Source: Polyangiaceae bacterium
Lineage (GTDB): Bacteria > Myxococcota_A > Polyangia > Polyangiales > Polyangiaceae
Direction of reading: 5' to 3'
NCBI GenBank assembly: GCA_025937785.1
Contig: JAICQQ010000004.1
Coordinates: 62,001-126,000, forward strand
DNA: 64,000 bases
Below, one piece after another: positions 43,621 through 52,271 of this stretch (positions are counted from its first letter, which is position 1; the number at the start of each line of letters is the position of its first letter). The notes beneath the pieces are model-generated. The model had not been told where the DNA came from and made no database searches. It worked only from the letters and a program-made list of their open reading frames with translations. The position numbers and the translations under genes are program-made.

Positions 43621-44553
43621 ATGCCCTTGCACGACCCCAGCGCCAGCGCGCCCCGACGCGCGCCGAGCGCCAGCTCCAGCGTCCGACTGGTCGGCTGGCT
43701 CTGCGCATTCACCCCGACTTTGTTCACGCTAAGCAGCGCGTGTCGTCGCAACGAATCTGCGGCCTCCGACGCGAAACCCGTGGAGTCCGCGGCACCCGTA
43801 CAGCGCGGCGTTCACGTGATCGTCGAACGGACTGCCGGCAATTTCATCGAGGCTACCGTGCTCGAAGAGCAAGGCGAGCACCTTCGCCTACAGAGCGCCG
43901 ACGGTAGCCATTCACTGCGCGCGTCCAAGACCAGTGTCTACTCCCTCTCGCCACCGATCACGGAAGCGACTCCCGGAGAGTTCGCAATCTGCGCGGTCCA
44001 GCGCTTGGTATGGAAGGGCTGCAAGGTGCTGAGCGCGCAAGCGAACGAGGTCGCCGTGGTGACCGCCCAAGCCCAACAGTATCGACTCGCGCAGACCGAG
44101 GTTCTGCGAGCCGGCGAGCTCACGCGCATGAACGTGAAACAAACCTTCGCCAAGGCCGAGCTTCGTGCTCGGTTCCTACGCGAGCTCCGCCTCGCCGGTA
44201 CTCCTCTGGCTCCCCCCGGCTGGCGGCCGGGTCCACGAGAACGCGTGATCGCAAAACGGCAGAACGACTGGTACGCAGCGCGTGTGCACGAGATCGAAGA
44301 GGACGGCGTGCGCGTGAGTTGGCAGGACAACCCCAACACCGAGAAGGTCGGGAGCGACGAGCTCATCCCCGAACCGCCGTATCCCGGGCAGCTCACGCGG
44401 GGACAATTCGCGCTCATGCGGCCGCGCGTCGAGTCGGAGCCCTGGGTCTACGTGAAGGTGCGTGCAGCGAGCGGCGACTACAAGGTGGAGGACATCAAGG
44501 GTGAAACGAGCCACGTGGGCCATACGGCGCTGATCCCCCTGACGCGCCGCTGA
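43621..44553 (+). CDS. Lipoprotein with four Tudor/agenet-like repeats
   Basis: A 310-residue probable lipoprotein (hydrophobic segment about 21-38, then SSAC with Cys41). The mature part seems to contain four small SH3-like beta-barrels: about 63-110 (VIVERTAGNFIEATVLE), 119-163 (FAICAVQRLVWKGCKVL), 204-250 (VIAKRQNDWYAARVHEIE, then DGVRVSW) and 260-307 (FALMRPRVESEPWVYVKVR). The third matches the Tudor/agenet pattern best. In eukaryotes such domains bind methylated residues; in an exported bacterial protein the ligand is unknown, and plain SH3-like wall-binding is equally possible. ATG at 43621. Divergent from the Gly/Pro-rich gene. Confidence 0.6.
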   Translation: MPLHDPSASAPRRAPSASSSVRLVGWLCAFTPTLFTLSSACRRNESAASDAKPVESAAPVQRGVHVIVERTAGNFIEATVLEEQGEHLRLQSADGSHSLRASKTSVYSLSPPITEATPGEFAICAVQRLVWKGCKVLSAQANEVAVVTAQAQQYRLAQTEVLRAGELTRMNVKQTFAKAELRARFLRELRLAGTPLAPPGWRPGPRERVIAKRQNDWYAARVHEIEEDGVRVSWQDNPNTEKVGSDELIPEPPYPGQLTRGQFALMRPRVESEPWVYVKVRAASGDYKVEDIKGETSHVGHTALIPLTRR

Positions 44554-44563
44554 CCTGGGCTCA

Positions 44564-46249
44564 TCATCGGCGAGGTGCCAACATGCGCGTCGCGACGAGT
44601 CCCACGGCTGCGCCGCTGCCGACCCTGAGCTCCACGGTGACGTTCAATGTATCCGGGCGATCGAGGGCGCAAGCGCGGGTACTCGTGGCTTGGGGGCCGC
44701 GCGCGAGCGCGACTTCGTGACCATTCGCCTTGTCGATCAGGCGGATCTCCGCGCCGTTCGCGCCGGCATCGAGCGCGAGCGTGATGTCCACACAACGACC
44801 GACCGGGATCAGGACATCCAAACGCGCGAGCTTGGTGCTGGCGAGCTGGAACTTTTGCGGTGCGCCCACCTGATGCGCGGTCTTGATCACGCCGCGGGCA
44901 AACATCCTCGCCAAGAGCCGACTGGCCGCGAGCGGAAGCTCATTGAGCACCTCGGGGGTCTCGCGCTCTTCGCGCAGCTCTACCTCGTAGTTGCCAGGGC
45001 GCACCAGCGCCTCGGCGTCCAGCCGCGTTTTTGCGCCGCGCGTGCAGGCGAACAAAGTGGCGTTGGTGCCGCTGCGCTCGTTGGCGATCAGCGAGCCTTC
45101 CGCCGACCAGAGCCAGGCTTCGACCCCGTGCATCGGGTGCTGACTCCAGACGTCGAGCCGGTAGCAGCCCTTTCGGAGGTCGAGATCGAAGCTCTGACGG
45201 CGCCCCACCGAGAGCGTGCCCTTGGCGACGGAGCGCGCTTTCGCGTAGCCAGCGGCGTCGAGCCGTTCGGCGTTTTGGCGGCGAGCTTCCGCCATATCCA
45301 GCGGGGGCAACAGGTCGAAGCGCAGCGAGTGCGCGTTGATGTCTTGCTCGGTGCCCTTCTTGCTCTTCGAAAGCACGACGACGGCGAGCCCACGCCCGGC
45401 GTGCGGGCGCACCTCGAAACTGACACGCCCGCGCGTCGGCGAGCACACGATGAGCGAACGCTCGCGCCCCGCGGCGTTGGCCCTGCCGACGATGCGCCCC
45501 TCGAGATCTTTCGCGAGCACGTCGAGGTGCGAAACTTCGTCCGCCGGGATCACGAGCGCGTCGAGGCACTGATCGGCCTCGATGTCGCCACCAACGTGCG
45601 AGGCGACGCGAGCGTCGACCGGCAACGCAACCCGCCGCAGATCTTCCCAGGCGCCACCGATCTGCTCTCGATGGCGCGTGATGCTCTCTTCCAAGCCCGG
45701 CCACGACTCCGCGTCCCGCGCGCCTTCCCGGTTGCGTGCGCCGATGGCCTCTGCCACGCGGTCGGCTTCGCGTGCGTCCACGCGTTGCGCCCCGATCGCC
45801 ACGACGCCGTTGCCCTGCGCGATGCGCGCGACCACGTACAAGCGCTGCGCTTGCCCGGGGCACACCATCAGGGTGGGGCGCTTGTCGGGAGCTTCGTCGG
45901 ATCCGTACGAGGTACCGTCGTCGGCGTAGACGAACAGATCGATGTCTTCGACGCCTTCGGTGCCGCGCGCGATCAGCGCCACGCACGAGCGCTCGGGCAC
46001 TCGCACCATGCCCTCGACGCGATCACCCGGCATGCCCGCCTGCACCGCGATCACCTGCGAGGCGTCCGCCCCCGCGGTCGTCGCCTTCTTCGAGTCGCCG
46101 GCGAGCCACTCGGCGGCGTCCAGCTCGACACGGGTCGCACCAAAACCTCCGCGGGCGCCGGTCTTGGGCTGCGACTTCGACGCCCCCGAACAGCCGCTCA
46201 TTGCGAGCAAGGCACAGCCCAACAGCACCCCTCGAGCCAGACGCTTCAT
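44564..46249 (-). CDS. Lipoprotein with four paired-Cys beta repeats
   Basis: A 561-residue lipoprotein of unknown function: signal peptide with lipobox MSGC (Cys20). Four modules each carry two Cys about 40 residues apart: Cys89/Cys130, Cys228/Cys269, Cys362/Cys402 and Cys485/Cys526. Each begins with C plus a strand (for example CVALIA, CLDALV, CYRLDV, CVDITL), has a turn such as DIDLFVYADDG or VEAWLWSAEG, and reaches the second Cys in a LxVC or LFAC strand, followed by a further VxVxV strand. This resembles PPC-like jelly-roll domains, but I do not recognise the family. ATG at 46249 overlaps the stop of the upstream gene (ATGA), which encodes three more such modules. Convergent with the Tudor-like lipoprotein gene. 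Confidence 0.7.
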   Translation of the reverse strand: MKRLARGVLLGCALLAMSGCSGASKSQPKTGARGGFGATRVELDAAEWLAGDSKKATTAGADASQVIAVQAGMPGDRVEGMVRVPERSCVALIARGTEGVEDIDLFVYADDGTSYGSDEAPDKRPTLMVCPGQAQRLYVVARIAQGNGVVAIGAQRVDAREADRVAEAIGARNREGARDAESWPGLEESITRHREQIGGAWEDLRRVALPVDARVASHVGGDIEADQCLDALVIPADEVSHLDVLAKDLEGRIVGRANAAGRERSLIVCSPTRGRVSFEVRPHAGRGLAVVVLSKSKKGTEQDINAHSLRFDLLPPLDMAEARRQNAERLDAAGYAKARSVAKGTLSVGRRQSFDLDLRKGCYRLDVWSQHPMHGVEAWLWSAEGSLIANERSGTNATLFACTRGAKTRLDAEALVRPGNYEVELREERETPEVLNELPLAASRLLARMFARGVIKTAHQVGAPQKFQLASTKLARLDVLIPVGRCVDITLALDAGANGAEIRLIDKANGHEVALARGPQATSTRACALDRPDTLNVTVELRVGSGAAVGLVATRMLAPRR

Positions 46250-47676
46250 GGACGCGGCTCCCCGAGAGCGACACTGCCGACCTGCCACACCCCGAGCAAC
46301 CAGCCGAGTCCGGACCCGTGTGCCTCGACTTCGAGCACGGCGCGATCGGAACCTTCGGCGCAGAAGGCCAGGCTGGTACTGGTTTGGTCGGGCTGGCTCT
46401 GGTTTTGGCCGAGTGAACCGCCACCCTGCGCGGCGATCGCGATCCCATGGGTCGCTCCGCGAATCGCTGCAACCACCACCAGGTAACACGCTTCGGGCAG
46501 CACCTCGACGGGCAAGAAGGTCGGGCCCTGTACGCCCAACGTGGCGAACACGGGGCTCTCGGTGAGCGCAGGGAACTGCGCCTTGCCCACGGCCTCGGCC
46601 ATGCTGGCGCGGGCACGGGTTCCCCACGCTTCGGGCAGCCCCGGCGGCAGCTGCCAGCTCGCCAGCACCACCGCCACCTCCGTGCGCGGCGCCGCGCCCT
46701 GAAACGTGAGCTTGACGATCTCTTGCTGCCCCACGCAAAATTCGACGCTGGCGTCGGGATTGTCCGAGCGGTCTTCGGCCAAAACCAGCTCGTCGGAGAC
46801 GGATTTGATCAGCAGATCCAGGTCCGTCGGATGTTCGTCGTCGTCGCTGGCTTCGCCGAGCACGTCGAAGCGATGGCACCCCGCATCCAGCCGGAACAAC
46901 TTGGTGCCCGTGCCCGATCGCGAGCTCGCCAGCTTGCGCTCGTACGGGTCGAGGCCGTTGTTCTGAGCGTTCCTGTGCTGCACGCGAGCGACGCGTTCGG
47001 CGAGCGGTGCGAGCGAAGCTTGCGGCCCCGTCTCACGGCGACGCCCCGGGGGGCCTGGATCGCGATGCGGCAAGGTCTTCAAGAGCGAGGGCATCGGTTC
47101 GGACGAGCGTGCCACCACGAACTCCAGCACCCCCCGCGGCGAGCGCATTTCGACGGCCACTCGGCTCAGCATCGCCTTCCGCGCCCCGCAACGCGTGACC
47201 TGCGCGGCGCCCGCGATGCTGGGCTCGGGCCAGTCACGGCTCGCGGCACCCTCGCCGCTGGCAGGCAGAAACCTCAGCACGAAGTTGGTGCTGGGCGCCC
47301 CGAGCACGGCCACCGTGGTGCACTCCTCGCTGGTCGGATCGATATCCTCCCTGGCCAAGAACAAGCGCCGGATCGTGCCGCGTTCGAGGAGGCGAGGCTT
47401 CACGTCGGTAAGCTTCGCGTGCTTTGCCCACGCGAGCTTCACGCGCTCCACGTCCGCTCCCAGATCCGCGGACGCGACACTCGAGAGCGAGAGCGCCACG
47501 ACCAGTGCACCGAGGCCCGGGCCAATCCCGCGTCGCCTCAGACCACCCTCGCCTAGAGCCGTCGCCGAGTAGGCCCTGCTGGGCGGCAGCGTCTTTTTCC
47601 ACCGCCAAGACGCCGATAACGCCAAGCCTCGCCAAGCGAATCTAGTTGGATCGGCGCATCGGACCAAGGCGTTCAT
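46246..47676 (-). CDS. Exported protein with three paired-Cys beta repeats
   Basis: A 476-residue exported protein, related in architecture to its downstream neighbour. A signal-like hydrophobic stretch (about 52-70, ending SVASA) is preceded by an unusually long 50-residue N-terminus, so the true start may lie further in. Paired Cys modules: Cys119/Cys163, Cys267/Cys314 (DLDLLIKSVSDELVLAED within) and Cys397/Cys439. A Pro/Arg-rich spacer lies at about 200-235. Function unknown; the coupled neighbour suggests they form one complex. ATG at 47676 is used provisionally. The GC-rich region upstream (47677-47861) shows no gene. Confidence 0.6.
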   Translation of the reverse strand: MNALVRCADPTRFAWRGLALSASWRWKKTLPPSRAYSATALGEGGLRRRGIGPGLGALVVALSLSSVASADLGADVERVKLAWAKHAKLTDVKPRLLERGTIRRLFLAREDIDPTSEECTTVAVLGAPSTNFVLRFLPASGEGAASRDWPEPSIAGAAQVTRCGARKAMLSRVAVEMRSPRGVLEFVVARSSEPMPSLLKTLPHRDPGPPGRRRETGPQASLAPLAERVARVQHRNAQNNGLDPYERKLASSRSGTGTKLFRLDAGCHRFDVLGEASDDDEHPTDLDLLIKSVSDELVLAEDRSDNPDASVEFCVGQQEIVKLTFQGAAPRTEVAVVLASWQLPPGLPEAWGTRARASMAEAVGKAQFPALTESPVFATLGVQGPTFLPVEVLPEACYLVVVAAIRGATHGIAIAAQGGGSLGQNQSQPDQTSTSLAFCAEGSDRAVLEVEAHGSGLGWLLGVWQVGSVALGEPRP

Positions 47677-47861: not shown

Positions 47862-47981
47862 TGCTGCTCGATCATGAGGGACGGGAAGTGTATCAAGTCG
47901 CACTGGATTTTCTCGTCATCGCGAAGCGATCATCGAAGGACTACCGCGAGCACAGCCCTTTCCTCGACTTCTCGGCCTAGG
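47862..47981 (+). pseudogene. Remnant of a four-helix-bundle (S23/IVP-like) protein gene
   Basis: An open frame of 39 codons reading MLLDHEGREVYQVALDFLVI and ending DFLDFSA-like after a short divergent stretch. The beginning matches the first helix of four-helix-bundle proteins related to those encoded in 23S rRNA intervening sequences (H-E-x-x-x-V-Y-x-x-A-x-x-F), normally about 120 residues. Here the frame stops after one helix and runs into the 3' end of the JAMM gene on the other strand, so it is best read as a decayed fragment. A random match is possible because it is short. Confidence 0.45.
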
Positions 47982-48489
47982 CGTCGACTTCGTGAAACGG
48001 TGACTCGACGAAGGACTTGGTGTCGCCCTGCCAGATGAACAAGCGATGTTTGGTGACCTGGCCTTGGTCGACCGCCGTCACCAGGTAACAAAGCTCGTAG
48101 CTGGGCTGTGAGCCATCGCCCATGGTCATGCTCGCGGCGTCCTCGGCGCTGAAGTATGCGCCGCAGTCGAGGTGCGAATGAAAGAAGACCTTGATCGGGC
48201 GACCCGTACGCTCGCCTTCAGCGAGCGCACGCTCGAACTTCAGCCCGTTGATCTTGAAGTAATCGTGGCCAGTGCGAGGGTGCCCCACGGGATCGACCGC
48301 GTGGTACTTGTTGGCCAGATTCTCGAGCTCGACGGCGTGATCCGCCAAGAGGGCGTCGTCCGCGGGACCGGCGACGTAGCCGCAGGCCTCCTCGTTGCGG
48401 GCGTAGGCAGCGCGGGCGGCTGCTTCGATGACTTGTAGGGCCGGGCGCGTGATGCGGACACGGCCTTCGATCCAGGGACGTTTCACCAT
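47977..48489 (-). CDS. mec: JAMM/MPN+ metallopeptidase (Mec-like)
   Basis: A 170-residue JAB/MPN+ zinc peptidase. The JAMM motif is complete: Glu33 or Glu34 in RNEEACGYV, His104-Ser-His106, Ser114 and Asp117 (HSH then seven residues then S-x-x-D). In actinobacteria Mec cleaves cysteine from the CysO-Cys adduct made by CysM. Here it is coupled to a cysM-like gene (7-base overlap) and lies four genes from a CysO-like carrier, so the same role is likely; trimming of the Gly-Gly-Arg tail of the carrier is a second possible task. ATG at 48489. Confidence 0.85.
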   Translation of the reverse strand: MVKRPWIEGRVRITRPALQVIEAAARAAYARNEEACGYVAGPADDALLADHAVELENLANKYHAVDPVGHPRTGHDYFKINGLKFERALAEGERTGRPIKVFFHSHLDCGAYFSAEDAASMTMGDGSQPSYELCYLVTAVDQGQVTKHRLFIWQGDTKSFVESPFHEVDA

Positions 48490-49433
48490 GTGTAGCGTTT
48501 CTCCCAGCGGATGGGGGCAAAGTAGCGGTCGCCGCGGTCGCACGCGACCGTCACCACACAGCCTCCACCTTGCTCCTTGTGGGCCCGTTCTGCCAGCTTC
48601 ACTGCCGCGAAGATGTTGGCGCCGGTCGAGTGCCCGACGTGCAAGCCTTCTTCGGCGGCGACCCGATCGGCCATGTCCCAGCCGTCATCGGTGGTGACAG
48701 GCATGATTTCGTCGGGCAAGTTCGGATCGTAGATGCCGGGCACGATGCTCGAAGCCATGTGCTTCAGGCCCTCGAGCCCGTGCAGCGCCTCGGCGGGCTC
48801 GGCCGCGACGCAATGGATCTTTCGGTGATGCTCGTGCAGCCGGCGCGTGGTGCCCATCGCCGTACCGCTCGTTCCGAGCGAGGTGACGAAGTGTGTGATG
48901 CGGTCGCCCAAGGCCTCCAGAATCTCTCGGCCGGTGCCGTGGTAATGCGCCAACGGATTGGAGGGATTGTTGTACTGATCGGGGTAAAAATATTTGTCGG
49001 GGTCGTGGTCGACGATCTCGCGCACCTTGCGGATCGCTCCGTCCGACCCCTCCATCGGGTCACTGAAGATGAGCTCGGTGCCGAAGGCCCGGGTGATGTC
49101 CTTGCGCGCTTTGGTCACGTTCTTGGGCATCACGAGCTGCACCCGGTAACCGAGCGCAGCGCCCAACATCGAGTAGGCCACTCCCGTATTGCCGCTGGTC
49201 GAGTCGATCAGGATCTTGTCTTGGGTGAGGCGGCCGTCTTCGATGGCGTCGAGCATCATGCGCAGGGCGGGGCGGTCTTTCACCGATCCACCCGGGTTCA
49301 TGAACTCGAGCTTGACGTAGACCTCCACGCTGGGGGCGCTCGCCGCGACCTTGTTGAGTTTCAAGAGGGGAGTGTTCCCCACTGCTTCGACGACAGAAGC
49401 CAGGCGGCGCGAACGATGCAGGCGAAGACCCAT
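48483..49433 (-). CDS. cysM: CysM-like cysteine synthase, probably CysO-thiocarboxylate dependent
   Basis: PLP enzyme of 316 residues making cysteine from an O-activated serine and a sulfur donor. Internal-aldimine Lys52 is in NPGGSVKDR, and TSGNTG (78-83) binds the substrate carboxylate. Segments such as DPMEGSDGAIRK, YQYNNPSN-like DQYNNPSNPLAHYHGTG and LGTSGTAMGTTRRL resemble mycobacterial CysM, which takes sulfur from CysO thiocarboxylate, more than CysK. The C-terminus is long, as CysM uses its tail to close the site. ATG at 49433, 21 bases after the 94-residue gene. A cystathionine beta-synthase-like activity is not excluded. Confidence 0.85.
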   Translation of the reverse strand: MGLRLHRSRRLASVVEAVGNTPLLKLNKVAASAPSVEVYVKLEFMNPGGSVKDRPALRMMLDAIEDGRLTQDKILIDSTSGNTGVAYSMLGAALGYRVQLVMPKNVTKARKDITRAFGTELIFSDPMEGSDGAIRKVREIVDHDPDKYFYPDQYNNPSNPLAHYHGTGREILEALGDRITHFVTSLGTSGTAMGTTRRLHEHHRKIHCVAAEPAEALHGLEGLKHMASSIVPGIYDPNLPDEIMPVTTDDGWDMADRVAAEEGLHVGHSTGANIFAAVKLAERAHKEQGGGCVVTVACDRGDRYFAPIRWEKRYTW

Positions 49434-49454: not shown

Positions 49455-49739
49455 TCAGTGCGCCAAGATCTCGCGGATCTGGCCGAGCGCGAGCCAGGCG
49501 CCGAACGCGACGTCGCGGCTGGTCTCGTGCCGGAAGTGTTCCTCGTGCGGAAAGGCCGGGGGAGGCTGGGCGCTCGGCGTGACGCACCGAACCCCGGCTC
49601 GCAACAGGTAGCTCGTCTGAATCGAAGCTCCGCTGGAGTCTGCGATGGCAGGCTCGGCTGCGCACAGCCGAGCCTGACCCGGTGCACCCACGTCCGCGAG
49701 GCGAACTTGTCGACTGAAACGCGGATCGTCCAACTTCAT
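49455..49739 (-). CDS. 94-residue degenerate E1-like (ThiF/MoeB-type) protein
   Basis: A small protein that looks like an E1 domain with its middle deleted. Residues 7-25 (RFSRQVRLADVGAPGQARL) match the N-terminal RYSRQILLPEVGxxGQxxL helix of ThiF/MoeB enzymes. Residues 26-52 (AAEPAIADSSGASIQTSYLL then RAGV) follow the first Rossmann unit, but DSSGAS replaces the GAGGLG nucleotide loop. The last 20 residues (DVAFGAWLALGQIREIL) resemble the final helix of the fold. No CxxC or adenylation residues remain. It overlaps the carrier gene as ATGA. Possible non-catalytic E1 subunit; alternatively a decaying duplicate. Confidence 0.6.
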   Translation of the reverse strand: MKLDDPRFSRQVRLADVGAPGQARLCAAEPAIADSSGASIQTSYLLRAGVRCVTPSAQPPPAFPHEEHFRHETSRDVAFGAWLALGQIREILAH

Positions 49740-50011
49740 CGGCCGCCCGCGATGGCCGGCACAATGCTGACCTCGTCGCCGGCCTTCAGCTCGGTGGCGA
49801 GTCCGTCGAGGAAGCGAATGTCCTCTTCGCCGACGTAGATGTTCACGTGCCGTTGCACGCCCTTGGCGTCGAGCAGCCGGCCCTTGATGCCAGGGTGCTT
49901 GCTTTCCAGCTCGTCGATCAGGGCTGCCACGGTGGCGCCTGAAGCCTTCACGCTCTCTTCACCGCCGGTCAGCGGCCTGAGAACTGCAGGAATACGTATG
50001 GTTACCTCCAT
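49736..50011 (-). CDS. cysO: CysO/MoaD/ThiS-like sulfur-carrier protein ending Gly-Gly-Arg
   Basis: A 91-residue ubiquitin-fold sulfur carrier. The closing segment DEVSIVPAIAGGR matches mycobacterial CysO (IIPAVAGG) with one extra Arg after the diglycine. Activation by an E1 needs a free C-terminal Gly, so this residue would have to be removed. The carrier would receive sulfide as a thiocarboxylate and hand it to CysM. ATG at 50011 overlaps the E1 gene by 10 bases and has GGAGAAG upstream. MoaD or ThiS roles are less likely given the neighbours, and a separate thiS is at 56555-56755. Confidence 0.85.
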   Translation of the reverse strand: MEVTIRIPAVLRPLTGGEESVKASGATVAALIDELESKHPGIKGRLLDAKGVQRHVNIYVGEEDIRFLDGLATELKAGDEVSIVPAIAGGR

Positions 50012-50802
50012 GGGTCTTCTCTCCTTGAATGCGGCGGCGGGGCGCCTTGGGTGATCGCACAGTTGGGTGCCAGATAACGCGCTTCATCGATATCGACAAT
50101 GCTCGGACGCGGCCCGCAGAGCGGGCAGTCGGTCCTGCCCGTCACGGCGACGCGTCGCAAGCGGTCGAGTTTACCATCGTACGCAAAGATACTGCCTTGG
50201 CGGTCGTAGGACCCAAGCAGGCACGACAGCGCCAGGTCGGCCATCAGCGCGCCGGCGACCCCCAGCACTGGTCCCATCACGCCGGCTTCGTCGCAGTTCA
50301 GGCCCACTTCCGCGGACGGGACGTCCTCGAACAGGCAGCGGTAACAGGGCCGTCCCCCGCGGCCGACCGCGAACACCGTGGTCGTCCAGCGCACGCCCGC
50401 GCCGTGGACTACTGGGCGCCCAGTCAAAAATGCAGCGTCGGCGGTCAAGAACTTGGTGGCGAAGTTGTCCGCACCCTCGACCAACAGATCGACCGAGTTC
50501 GCCAGATCGAGGGCATTGTCCGGCAAGAACCGCGAGTGGGCGAGCTCCACCGTGAGGCCGGTGTCGAGCGCCCCAAGCTTTTGGCGGGCCAGCGTGGCCT
50601 TGTCCTTGCCGACATCTTCGGGACCGAACAATAGCTGGCGGTGGAGGTTCGACAGCGACACCTCGTCATCGTCCGCCAGCACCAGGCGCCCGATGCCCGA
50701 GCGAGCGAGGGCGAGCAGCGTCGGGCAGCCGAGCCCGCCCACGCCGATGACCAGCGCGCTCTTCCGGCTCAATGTCTGAGCGTGCTCGCGGGACTCGGAC
50801 AT
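50002..50802 (-). CDS. E1-like adenylyltransferase (ThiF/MoeB family) lacking the N-terminal Arg helix
   Basis: A 266-residue enzyme that should adenylate the carrier C-terminus. GVGGLG (20-25) is the nucleotide loop, DDDEVSLSNLHRQ holds the Asp and Arg/Gln of the active site, and Cys153-x-x-Cys156 plus Cys226-x-x-Cys229 form the zinc site. Normal relatives begin with RYSRQ, whose Arg reaches into the active site of the partner subunit. Here only about 15 residues precede the first strand, and an in-frame stop codon shortly upstream prevents any longer protein. ATG at 50802 has AGGGAG with about 8-base spacing; GTG at 50811 overlaps the cysK stop. Confidence 0.88.
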   Translation of the reverse strand: MSESREHAQTLSRKSALVIGVGGLGCPTLLALARSGIGRLVLADDDEVSLSNLHRQLLFGPEDVGKDKATLARQKLGALDTGLTVELAHSRFLPDNALDLANSVDLLVEGADNFATKFLTADAAFLTGRPVVHGAGVRWTTTVFAVGRGGRPCYRCLFEDVPSAEVGLNCDEAGVMGPVLGVAGALMADLALSCLLGSYDRQGSIFAYDGKLDRLRRVAVTGRTDCPLCGPRPSIVDIDEARYLAPNCAITQGAPPPHSRREDPWR

Positions 50803-50807
50803 CTGCG

Positions 50808-51788
50808 TCACTCCCTAAAATACTCATCCAAACTGAAATAACGCTCGCCGGTGTCGCACAACACCGTCACGACGTTCGCACCGGGTCCGAGCTCGCGGGC
50901 CACGTCCAACGCGATCGCGACGTTGGCGCCAGCGCTGATCCCGGTGAGTAGCCCCTCGCGCGTCGCGAGCGCGCGCTTGGTGCGATAGGCGCGATCGTCG
51001 GTCACCGTGCGCACCTCGTGAGGCACCTCCCGATCGTAGTTGCCCGGCACGAAGCCGGCGGCGATGCCCTGGATCTTCGAGGGGCCACGTTCACCGCGGG
51101 AAATCGTGGCGCACGACTCGGGCTCGACGGCGATCACGCGGCAGCGCGGGTACACCTCGCGCAGGCGCTGGCCGACCCCGCTCACCGTGCCGCCGGTGCC
51201 CACCGCGGCCACGAAGGCGTCGATCGAAAGTCCGCTCATCGCTTTCAGGATTTCTTCGCTGGTGGCCGCGTAATGCACGCTCGGGTTCGCATGGTTCTCG
51301 AACTGTTGCGGCATGAAGGCCTTGGGGGTCTCTGCCACCAATTGCTTCGCCCGCTCGATCGCGCCCTCCATCTGGTCGGCTTCGGGCGTGAGCACCAGCT
51401 CGGCACCGAACGATTCGAGCAGCTGGCGCCGCTCGAGGCTCATGCTTTCGGGCATCGTGAGCACACAGCGGTAGCCACGTTGCGCGCATACGAGCGCGAG
51501 CCCGATCCCAGTGTTGCCGCTGGTCGGTTCGATCACGACGCCCCCCGGGCCAAGTGTGCCGGCCCGCTCGGCAGCCTCGATCATGGCCAGGCAAATCCGA
51601 TCCTTCACCGACCCACCCGGGTTCAGCGCTTCGAGCTTGCCGAAGACGCGCCCGCGCGGCAGCTCGGTCTCGAGCTGCCGCACCTCGACCAGCGGGGTAT
51701 CGTGAATCAGCTCGAGGACGTGTTGGTAGACGAGCGGATGCGTCGGCGCTGGGCGCCCGTCCGCTGGCGAGTGGGTCTCAGATGACAT
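50808..51788 (-). CDS. cysK: Cysteine synthase A-like O-acetylserine sulfhydrylase
   Basis: PLP enzyme (326 residues) that makes cysteine from O-acetylserine and sulfide. Lys62 in NPGGSVKDR binds PLP; TSGNTGIGLA, GTGGTVSGVG and LTGISAGANVAIAL follow in the usual order, and LCDTGERYFS is near the end. The first 20 residues are an extra Ser/Pro-rich extension. It starts at ATG 51788, overlapping the regulator gene by 11 bases, and its stop overlaps the possible GTG start of the E1 gene. Presence of both this and a CysM-type enzyme gives two routes to cysteine in one operon. Confidence 0.9.
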   Translation of the reverse strand: MSSETHSPADGRPAPTHPLVYQHVLELIHDTPLVEVRQLETELPRGRVFGKLEALNPGGSVKDRICLAMIEAAERAGTLGPGGVVIEPTSGNTGIGLALVCAQRGYRCVLTMPESMSLERRQLLESFGAELVLTPEADQMEGAIERAKQLVAETPKAFMPQQFENHANPSVHYAATSEEILKAMSGLSIDAFVAAVGTGGTVSGVGQRLREVYPRCRVIAVEPESCATISRGERGPSKIQGIAAGFVPGNYDREVPHEVRTVTDDRAYRTKRALATREGLLTGISAGANVAIALDVARELGPGANVVTVLCDTGERYFSLDEYFRE

Positions 51789-52251
51789 AAACGTAGGGCT
51801 GCGAGCCGGGGCGCTTCAGCCCAAGGCTGTCGGCCTTAGCGCAGATATCCTGGATACTGACCGCGTCAAAGCAACTTTCGACTTTGCTCGAAAGGTCTTT
51901 GAACACAGCTTCTGTGACGAGCTTGGAATCGTCGGTCAGAGCGCGCCGGCCCCCGCCCACGCGTTCGCCGAGCACGATAGGGCCTTCCAGCGCACGCACG
52001 ACGTCACCCAGGGTGATGCGCTCGGCGGGCACCGAAAGGCTGTAACCACCCTGTGGGCCCCGCTTCGAACCGACGATCCCCGCTCGCTTGAGATCTTGGA
52101 AGATTTGCTCCAGAAAGCGCGGAGGAATGCTCTGGCGCTCGGCAATGTCGCGAACCTGAGTCGGGCGGCCGGAGTTGAAAAACGCGATATCGAAGAGCGC
52201 TCGGACGGCGTAGCGCCCCTTGTTGGAGAGCTTCACGCTGGGCTTATGCAT
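51778..52251 (-). CDS. Rrf2-family transcriptional regulator (CymR/IscR-like)
   Basis: A 157-residue winged-helix regulator heading the cysteine operon. KLSNKGRYAVRALFDIAF, PPRFLEQIFQDLKRAGIV and GPQGGYSL are the Rrf2 landmarks. The three closely spaced Cys that bind a cluster in IscR are absent (only Cys around 128 and 137), so it is more like CymR, which senses cysteine availability through partners. It overlaps cysK. ATG at 52251 is listed; GTG at 52236 gives the V/MKLS start usual for the family, and the promoter position below favours it. Autoregulation is likely. Confidence 0.85.
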   Translation of the reverse strand: MHKPSVKLSNKGRYAVRALFDIAFFNSGRPTQVRDIAERQSIPPRFLEQIFQDLKRAGIVGSKRGPQGGYSLSVPAERITLGDVVRALEGPIVLGERVGGGRRALTDDSKLVTEAVFKDLSSKVESCFDAVSIQDICAKADSLGLKRPGSQPYVYVI

Positions 52252-52271
52252 TCTTACATCGGTTTTGTCAA
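52243..52271 (-). promoter_or_regulatory. Sigma70-like promoter of the cysteine operon
   Basis: TTGACA (52271-52266), a perfect -35 match, and CATAAG (52248-52243), four of six for -10, are 17 bases apart on the minus strand. Transcription would start near 52236, exactly at the alternative GTG start, so the regulator may be read from a leaderless message. If translation starts at 52251 instead, the promoter must lie elsewhere. Confidence 0.45.

Follow-up and report, generated by a model that had tools for sequence, protein, structure and literature searches.

The window, a stretch of 64,000 nucleotides from a Polyangiaceae bacterium, a soil myxobacterium (assembly of 9.4 Mb in 501 contigs, with an estimated contamination of 8.59%), carries on its minus strand two overlapping genes encoding the putative exported proteins P1 and P2. 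Upstream of P1 lie, in this order, genes for Mec, CysM, a small ThiF-like protein, CysO, ThiF, CysK and an Rrf2 regulator, a linkage to cysteine biosynthesis that had been missed in the preliminary description of this DNA. The features are as follows.

44564..46249 (-), P2, predicted lipoprotein (lipobox LAMSGC) with four Cys-pair modules, very probably PPC-type; overlaps P1 by ATGA
46246..47499 (-), P1, predicted exported protein with three Cys-pair modules; start uncertain, could reach 47676
47977..48489 (-), Mec-like JAB/MPN peptidase (Prok-JAB, E 4.1e-9)
48483..49433 (-), CysM-like cysteine synthase (PALP; Pfam/NCBIfam profile match)
49455..49739 (-), small protein like the N-terminus of ThiF/MoeB (E 0.0025, a weak match; conserved in the operon)
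49736..50011 (-), CysO-like sulfur carrier of the ThiS family (E 1.6e-18)
50002..50802 (-), ThiF/MoeB-family adenylyltransferase (E 1.5e-54)
50808..51788 (-), CysK cysteine synthase A (TIGR01139, 382.5 bits, cutoff 351)
51778..52251 (-), Rrf2-family regulator (Pfam/NCBIfam profile matches)
52257..52271 (-), TTGACAAAACCGATG, conserved promoter/operator-like element upstream of Rrf2 (by-eye comparison and window search)

The start of P1 may be ATG at 47676, CTG at 47541 or GTG at 47499. The four-base overlap (ATGA) and the coupling of the two genes, both proposed earlier, were borne out: the two genes lie on the minus strand and are adjacent in the relatives, with the same overlap in most of the close ones. 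Export, which PPC domains share and which had also been proposed, was supported by inspection, as a signal sequence was recognized in P1 and a lipobox in P2, both kept in the relatives, and the lipobox Cys was invariant among six family members. Just past the end of P2, a convergent gene (43621-44553, +) gave no match in Pfam or NCBIfam; its homologues occupy the same place in L043, L044 and L061.

The seven modules with two Cys about 40 residues apart, first noticed by eye, were found as described, three in P1 and four in P2, and the reported intervals proved exact, with 43, 46 and 41 residues between the paired Cys in P1 and 40, 40, 39 and 40 in P2. From first to second Cys, the pairs are located as follows.

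47199..47333 (-), P1 module 1, the one with the weakest link to the other modules
46735..46878 (-), P1 module 2, DxD kept
46360..46488 (-), P1 module 3, from Cys positions and profile comparison
45860..45985 (-), P2 module 1, DxD kept (D102, D104)
45443..45568 (-), P2 module 2, from Cys positions and profile comparison
45044..45166 (-), P2 module 3, from Cys positions and profile comparison
44669..44794 (-), P2 module 4, from Cys positions and profile comparison

The mature proteins contained no Cys outside these pairs except that of the P2 lipobox. The unpaired ones were C12 and C20 of P2 (signal sequence and lipobox) and C7 of P1, which lies in a doubtful N-terminal extension. When the same number of Cys was placed at random, a placement with every pair 40-47 apart arose 122 times for P1 and 6 times for P2, each in 400,000 trials. 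Furthermore, the eight paired Cys of P2 were invariant or almost invariant in relatives of 17-46% identity. A profile search at related loci, with a profile built from Cys-bearing modules and hence favouring them, yielded 251 distinct modules, many of them orthologous and so not independent events; both Cys were present in 248 and neither in three (in L019, L024 and L025), and no module had a single one. The spacing was exactly 41 positions in 155 of the 248 two-Cys modules. The random-placement trials and this survey ruled out a chance pattern. Each module is thus probably locked by one intra-domain disulfide, as judged from the sequences, and the all-or-none Cys pair offers a clean marker for one subfamily of PPC-type domains.

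The modules had been called unrecognised, and this stood insofar as P1 and P2 matched no Pfam family at E values up to 10, did not reach the gathering score of PPC (PF04151) and matched no NCBIfam model; a sequence search of the PDB with P2 as the sole query returned chance matches only. It did not stand as to their nature, since the four-module relatives L056 (43.5 bits, E 6.1e-11) and L054 (35.3 bits) matched PPC above the cutoff of 25.9 bits, while L051 remained narrowly below it (25.1 bits). Profile comparison with hhalign matched six of the seven window modules to distant modules with probabilities of 95.7-98.8%. P1 module 1 was only weakly linked to them (36.6%), though in register. Direct matches were missing between many of the window modules, and the link passes via the distant members. 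The homology to PPC thus runs through intermediates, L056 and L054 lying above the cutoff and the window modules matching theirs. Additionally, a 22-module profile aligned over positions 14-100 of 103 with the C-terminal jelly-roll domain of the subtilisin-like protease Tk-SP, with E values of 0.015 (3afg) and 0.0099 (9ues) that are weak taken alone.

The structures predicted by AlphaFold2 from small alignments showed repeated beta domains, with mean pLDDT and pTM of 82.5 and 0.67 for P2 (8 sequences) and 82.4 and 0.58 for P1 (9 sequences), and the modules were predicted to be beta sandwiches. Taken together, the PPC matches of the relatives, the alignment to the subtilisin jelly roll and the predicted beta sandwiches indicate that the modules of P1 and P2 are very probably distant PPC-type domains to which a Cys pair has been added. 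A wholly new fold was ruled out, given that relatives match PPC, and a likely fold is thereby assigned to two proteins outside the reach of all Pfam and NCBIfam models. The models also agreed with the reported pattern of modules that start with Cys plus strand and end with strand plus Cys. In P2 module 1 the first Cys opens the third strand and the second lies just past the sixth; much the same holds for the other modules. These two strands sit side by side in one sheet of a standard jelly roll. Hence, of the disulfide-closed beta sandwich put forward earlier, the sandwich is predicted, but the pair, going by the strand order, is more likely to link strands 3 and 6 within one sheet as a staple than to close the sandwich. 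Foldseek hits were many and generic, beside beta-rich modules of confident pLDDT. The collagen-binding domains of Hathewaya ColG (5iku) appeared among the hits of both models; many unrelated beta proteins scored as highly, however, whole-chain TM-scores were low and sequence support was absent.

PPC-type domains are already known. P1 and P2 share with them distant homology via intermediates, a predicted beta sandwich, export and, in two modules, a DxD motif matched by pattern, whereas they add a Cys pair per module, lack an attached protease, occur in arrays of three and four modules whose genes are linked to a cysteine operon and remain below the Pfam cutoff. The literature searched, whose coverage was incomplete and gives no proof of novelty, contained no mention of the strictly paired Cys, the three-plus-four layout or the link to the cysteine operon throughout the order.

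P2 had matches in 25 of the 144 genomes of the class and P1 in nine, these nine all belonging to the window's own family. The nine named P1/P2 loci come from metagenome-assembled genomes, mostly labelled Polyangiaceae and one Sorangium. In the genomes available in few contigs (G290, G401, G443 and G115), six to seven module clusters were counted per genome of 9.5-13.2 Mb, and arrays elsewhere in the same genomes lay away from cysteine genes. Four-module lipoproteins at other loci of the order adjoin FHA plus coaX-like, bamA-like or ddl-like genes, named from the starts of their sequences, and such neighbourhoods would fit an envelope role. A second kind of four-module lipoprotein was seen near FHA-like and coaX-like genes in L140, L151, L153 and L156, and two tandem four-module proteins stand just before bamA-, skp- and lpxD-looking genes in L054 (7611-11018) and L158 (6226-9719).

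The operon brings together a ThiS-family carrier, a ThiF-family enzyme, a CysM-like synthase and a JAB peptidase. The CysO-CysM-Mec cysteine pathway is known from mycobacteria, and the operon described here, a putative counterpart, has in common with it the sulfur carrier, the activating enzyme, the CysM-like synthase and the JAB peptidase; it differs in adding Rrf2, CysK, the small ThiF-like protein and P1-P2. CymR is the Rrf2-type cysteine regulator of Firmicutes, and the likeness consists of an Rrf2 regulator gene beside CysK. Against the NCBIfam equivalog of CymR, the window's Rrf2 scored 82.2 bits, below the cutoff of 195. In Polyangiaceae, the P1-P2 pair forms the last two genes of the Rrf2-CysK-ThiF-CysO-CysM-Mec operon, and in the close relatives L041, L042, L045 and L063 the whole is contiguous, with mostly overlapping genes. 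A gap of about 300-480 bases lies between Mec and P1 in the window itself, where the pair may or may not be transcribed with the operon.

Upstream of Rrf2, a TTGACAAnnCCGATG-like element was seen by eye in most relatives across the order, and one exact occurrence was found in the window. In appearance the element combines a -35 box with an operator, and it may control P1-P2. A large Rrf2 regulon was not retained as an explanation, since searches of six genomes with the strict pattern TTGACWWNYCCGATG turned up no more than one site per genome; this pattern is too narrow, having missed the window's own site TTGACAAAACCGATG, and the site counts therefore argue only weakly against many sites. Plasmid cargo was not retained either, as no match was found, and a demand for cysteine behind the linkage was not favoured, 14 paired Cys in two proteins of such size being, in our judgement, not unusual.

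Mec was present in 99 of the 116 genomes of the order, and the linkage was followed in a sample of 40 Mec loci, with up to 20 kb around each. Linkage was found in 26, with PPC-type modules nearby in 25 and P1 only in one. Ten of the 40 had already been seen to be linked from coordinates when they were chosen, and among the 30 without such prior knowledge 16 were linked. With the six to seven clusters per genome given above, chance alone would bring a module cluster to within 10 kb of a given gene about 1-1.5% of the time; the linkage counts were taken over related genomes that are not independent, and are hence given without a P value. Two arrangements were distinguished. In family f1 the arrays lie downstream of Mec, while in f2, f3, f4, f5 and f27 they are found upstream of Rrf2 or CysK at a distance of a few kb, in divergent orientation, often with a Ser/Thr kinase gene between arrays and operon. 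One conserved divergent set comprises a Ser/Thr kinase, another conserved protein, and one-module and four-module lipoproteins (L123 13844-18989, L139 1020-5980, L053 8690-13893). No linkage was found in the loci fetched from f26, f68, several f2, f4 (G135, G410 and G414) and f1 (G061 and G111), and a few contigs were too short for a decision.

P1-P2 could be general envelope components that owe their place beside the cysteine genes to an inherited gene order carrying no functional meaning, a view that agrees with the missing linkage in several genomes and with the similar four-module lipoproteins beside FHA/coaX-like, bamA-like and ddl-like genes. Nevertheless, the linkage is kept across families in two arrangements, the genes are tight and overlapping in Polyangiaceae, and in G013, where CysO, CysM and Mec were not found at this place any more, ThiF still adjoins P1-P2, all of which makes inherited order alone rather unlikely. 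Cysteine biosynthesis thus gives P1 and P2 a testable partner. If the linkage is functional, Polyangiales would have an envelope component in a cysteine pathway that is known from mycobacteria.

The reading we prefer, to which we give an even chance, is that P1-P2 are exported, disulfide-stapled PPC arms in the envelope, binding or structural, made together with the cysteine operon. P1 and P2 would form a conserved two-protein set of three plus four tandem PPC-type beta sandwiches with one staple each, P2 anchored as a lipoprotein and P1 exported by its signal sequence, presumably to the envelope. Being the last two operon genes in close relatives, they should be made whenever the operon is active, probably when cysteine is limiting or under oxidative stress. 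Like PPC domains elsewhere, they would most likely serve as rigid arms that bind protein or form layers. This role, as distinct from the architecture, is proposed tentatively and at somewhat less than even chances. The PPC domains of protease E495 bind protein via D26, D28, Y30 and Y/W65 (PMC3327674), and in Myxococcus the PPC part of FibA makes up Protein C of the spore cuticula (PMC3236237). A DxD motif at the equivalent position, equated with D26 and D28 of E495 by pattern, was conserved in P1 module 2 (8/8) and as the invariant D102 and D104 of P2 module 1; the other window modules were without it, save for isolated occurrences in P2 module 2. The two DxD modules may thus bind, and the remaining ones may be spacers.

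The help that PPC domains give proteases in binding protein substrates (PMC3327674), together with a likely co-expression with cysteine genes, would also suit the capture of proteins or peptides from outside to supply sulfur under cysteine limitation, which we consider highly improbable because the conserved neighbourhood holds neither a protease nor a peptide transporter. A redox or sulfur sensor outside the cytoplasm, or a thiol reservoir, whose cystines would respond to cysteine, sulfide or oxidants and whose state would be relayed, could explain the cysteine-operon linkage in two different arrangements and the Ser/Thr kinase genes that adjoin arrays in several families; the Cys pairs, however, with their fixed spacing and all-or-none presence inside domains, look structural and not reactive, and neither P1 nor P2 shows an evident signalling domain that spans the membrane, which makes this very unlikely. 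A broader proposal would extend P1-P2 to a dedicated, order-wide extracytoplasmic arm of the CysO-Mec system, in which stapled PPC arrays, standing beside a Ser/Thr kinase in several families, would work with the cysteine operon under Rrf2 control to handle or sense the sulfur or redox state of the cell's surroundings. It seems quite unlikely.

Within the operon, some variation was observed. The small protein at 49455-49739 resembles a detached N-terminus of ThiF/MoeB and lies between CysO and CysM in most relatives. In L048 (9942-11561, -), it apparently reads in frame into P1, with the P1 signal sequence inside; this seeming fusion was left out of the evidence. In L114 and L115, from G452 and G443, very large genomes of the window's family, a gene that looks like an APS kinase from the start of its sequence lies between Mec and P1.
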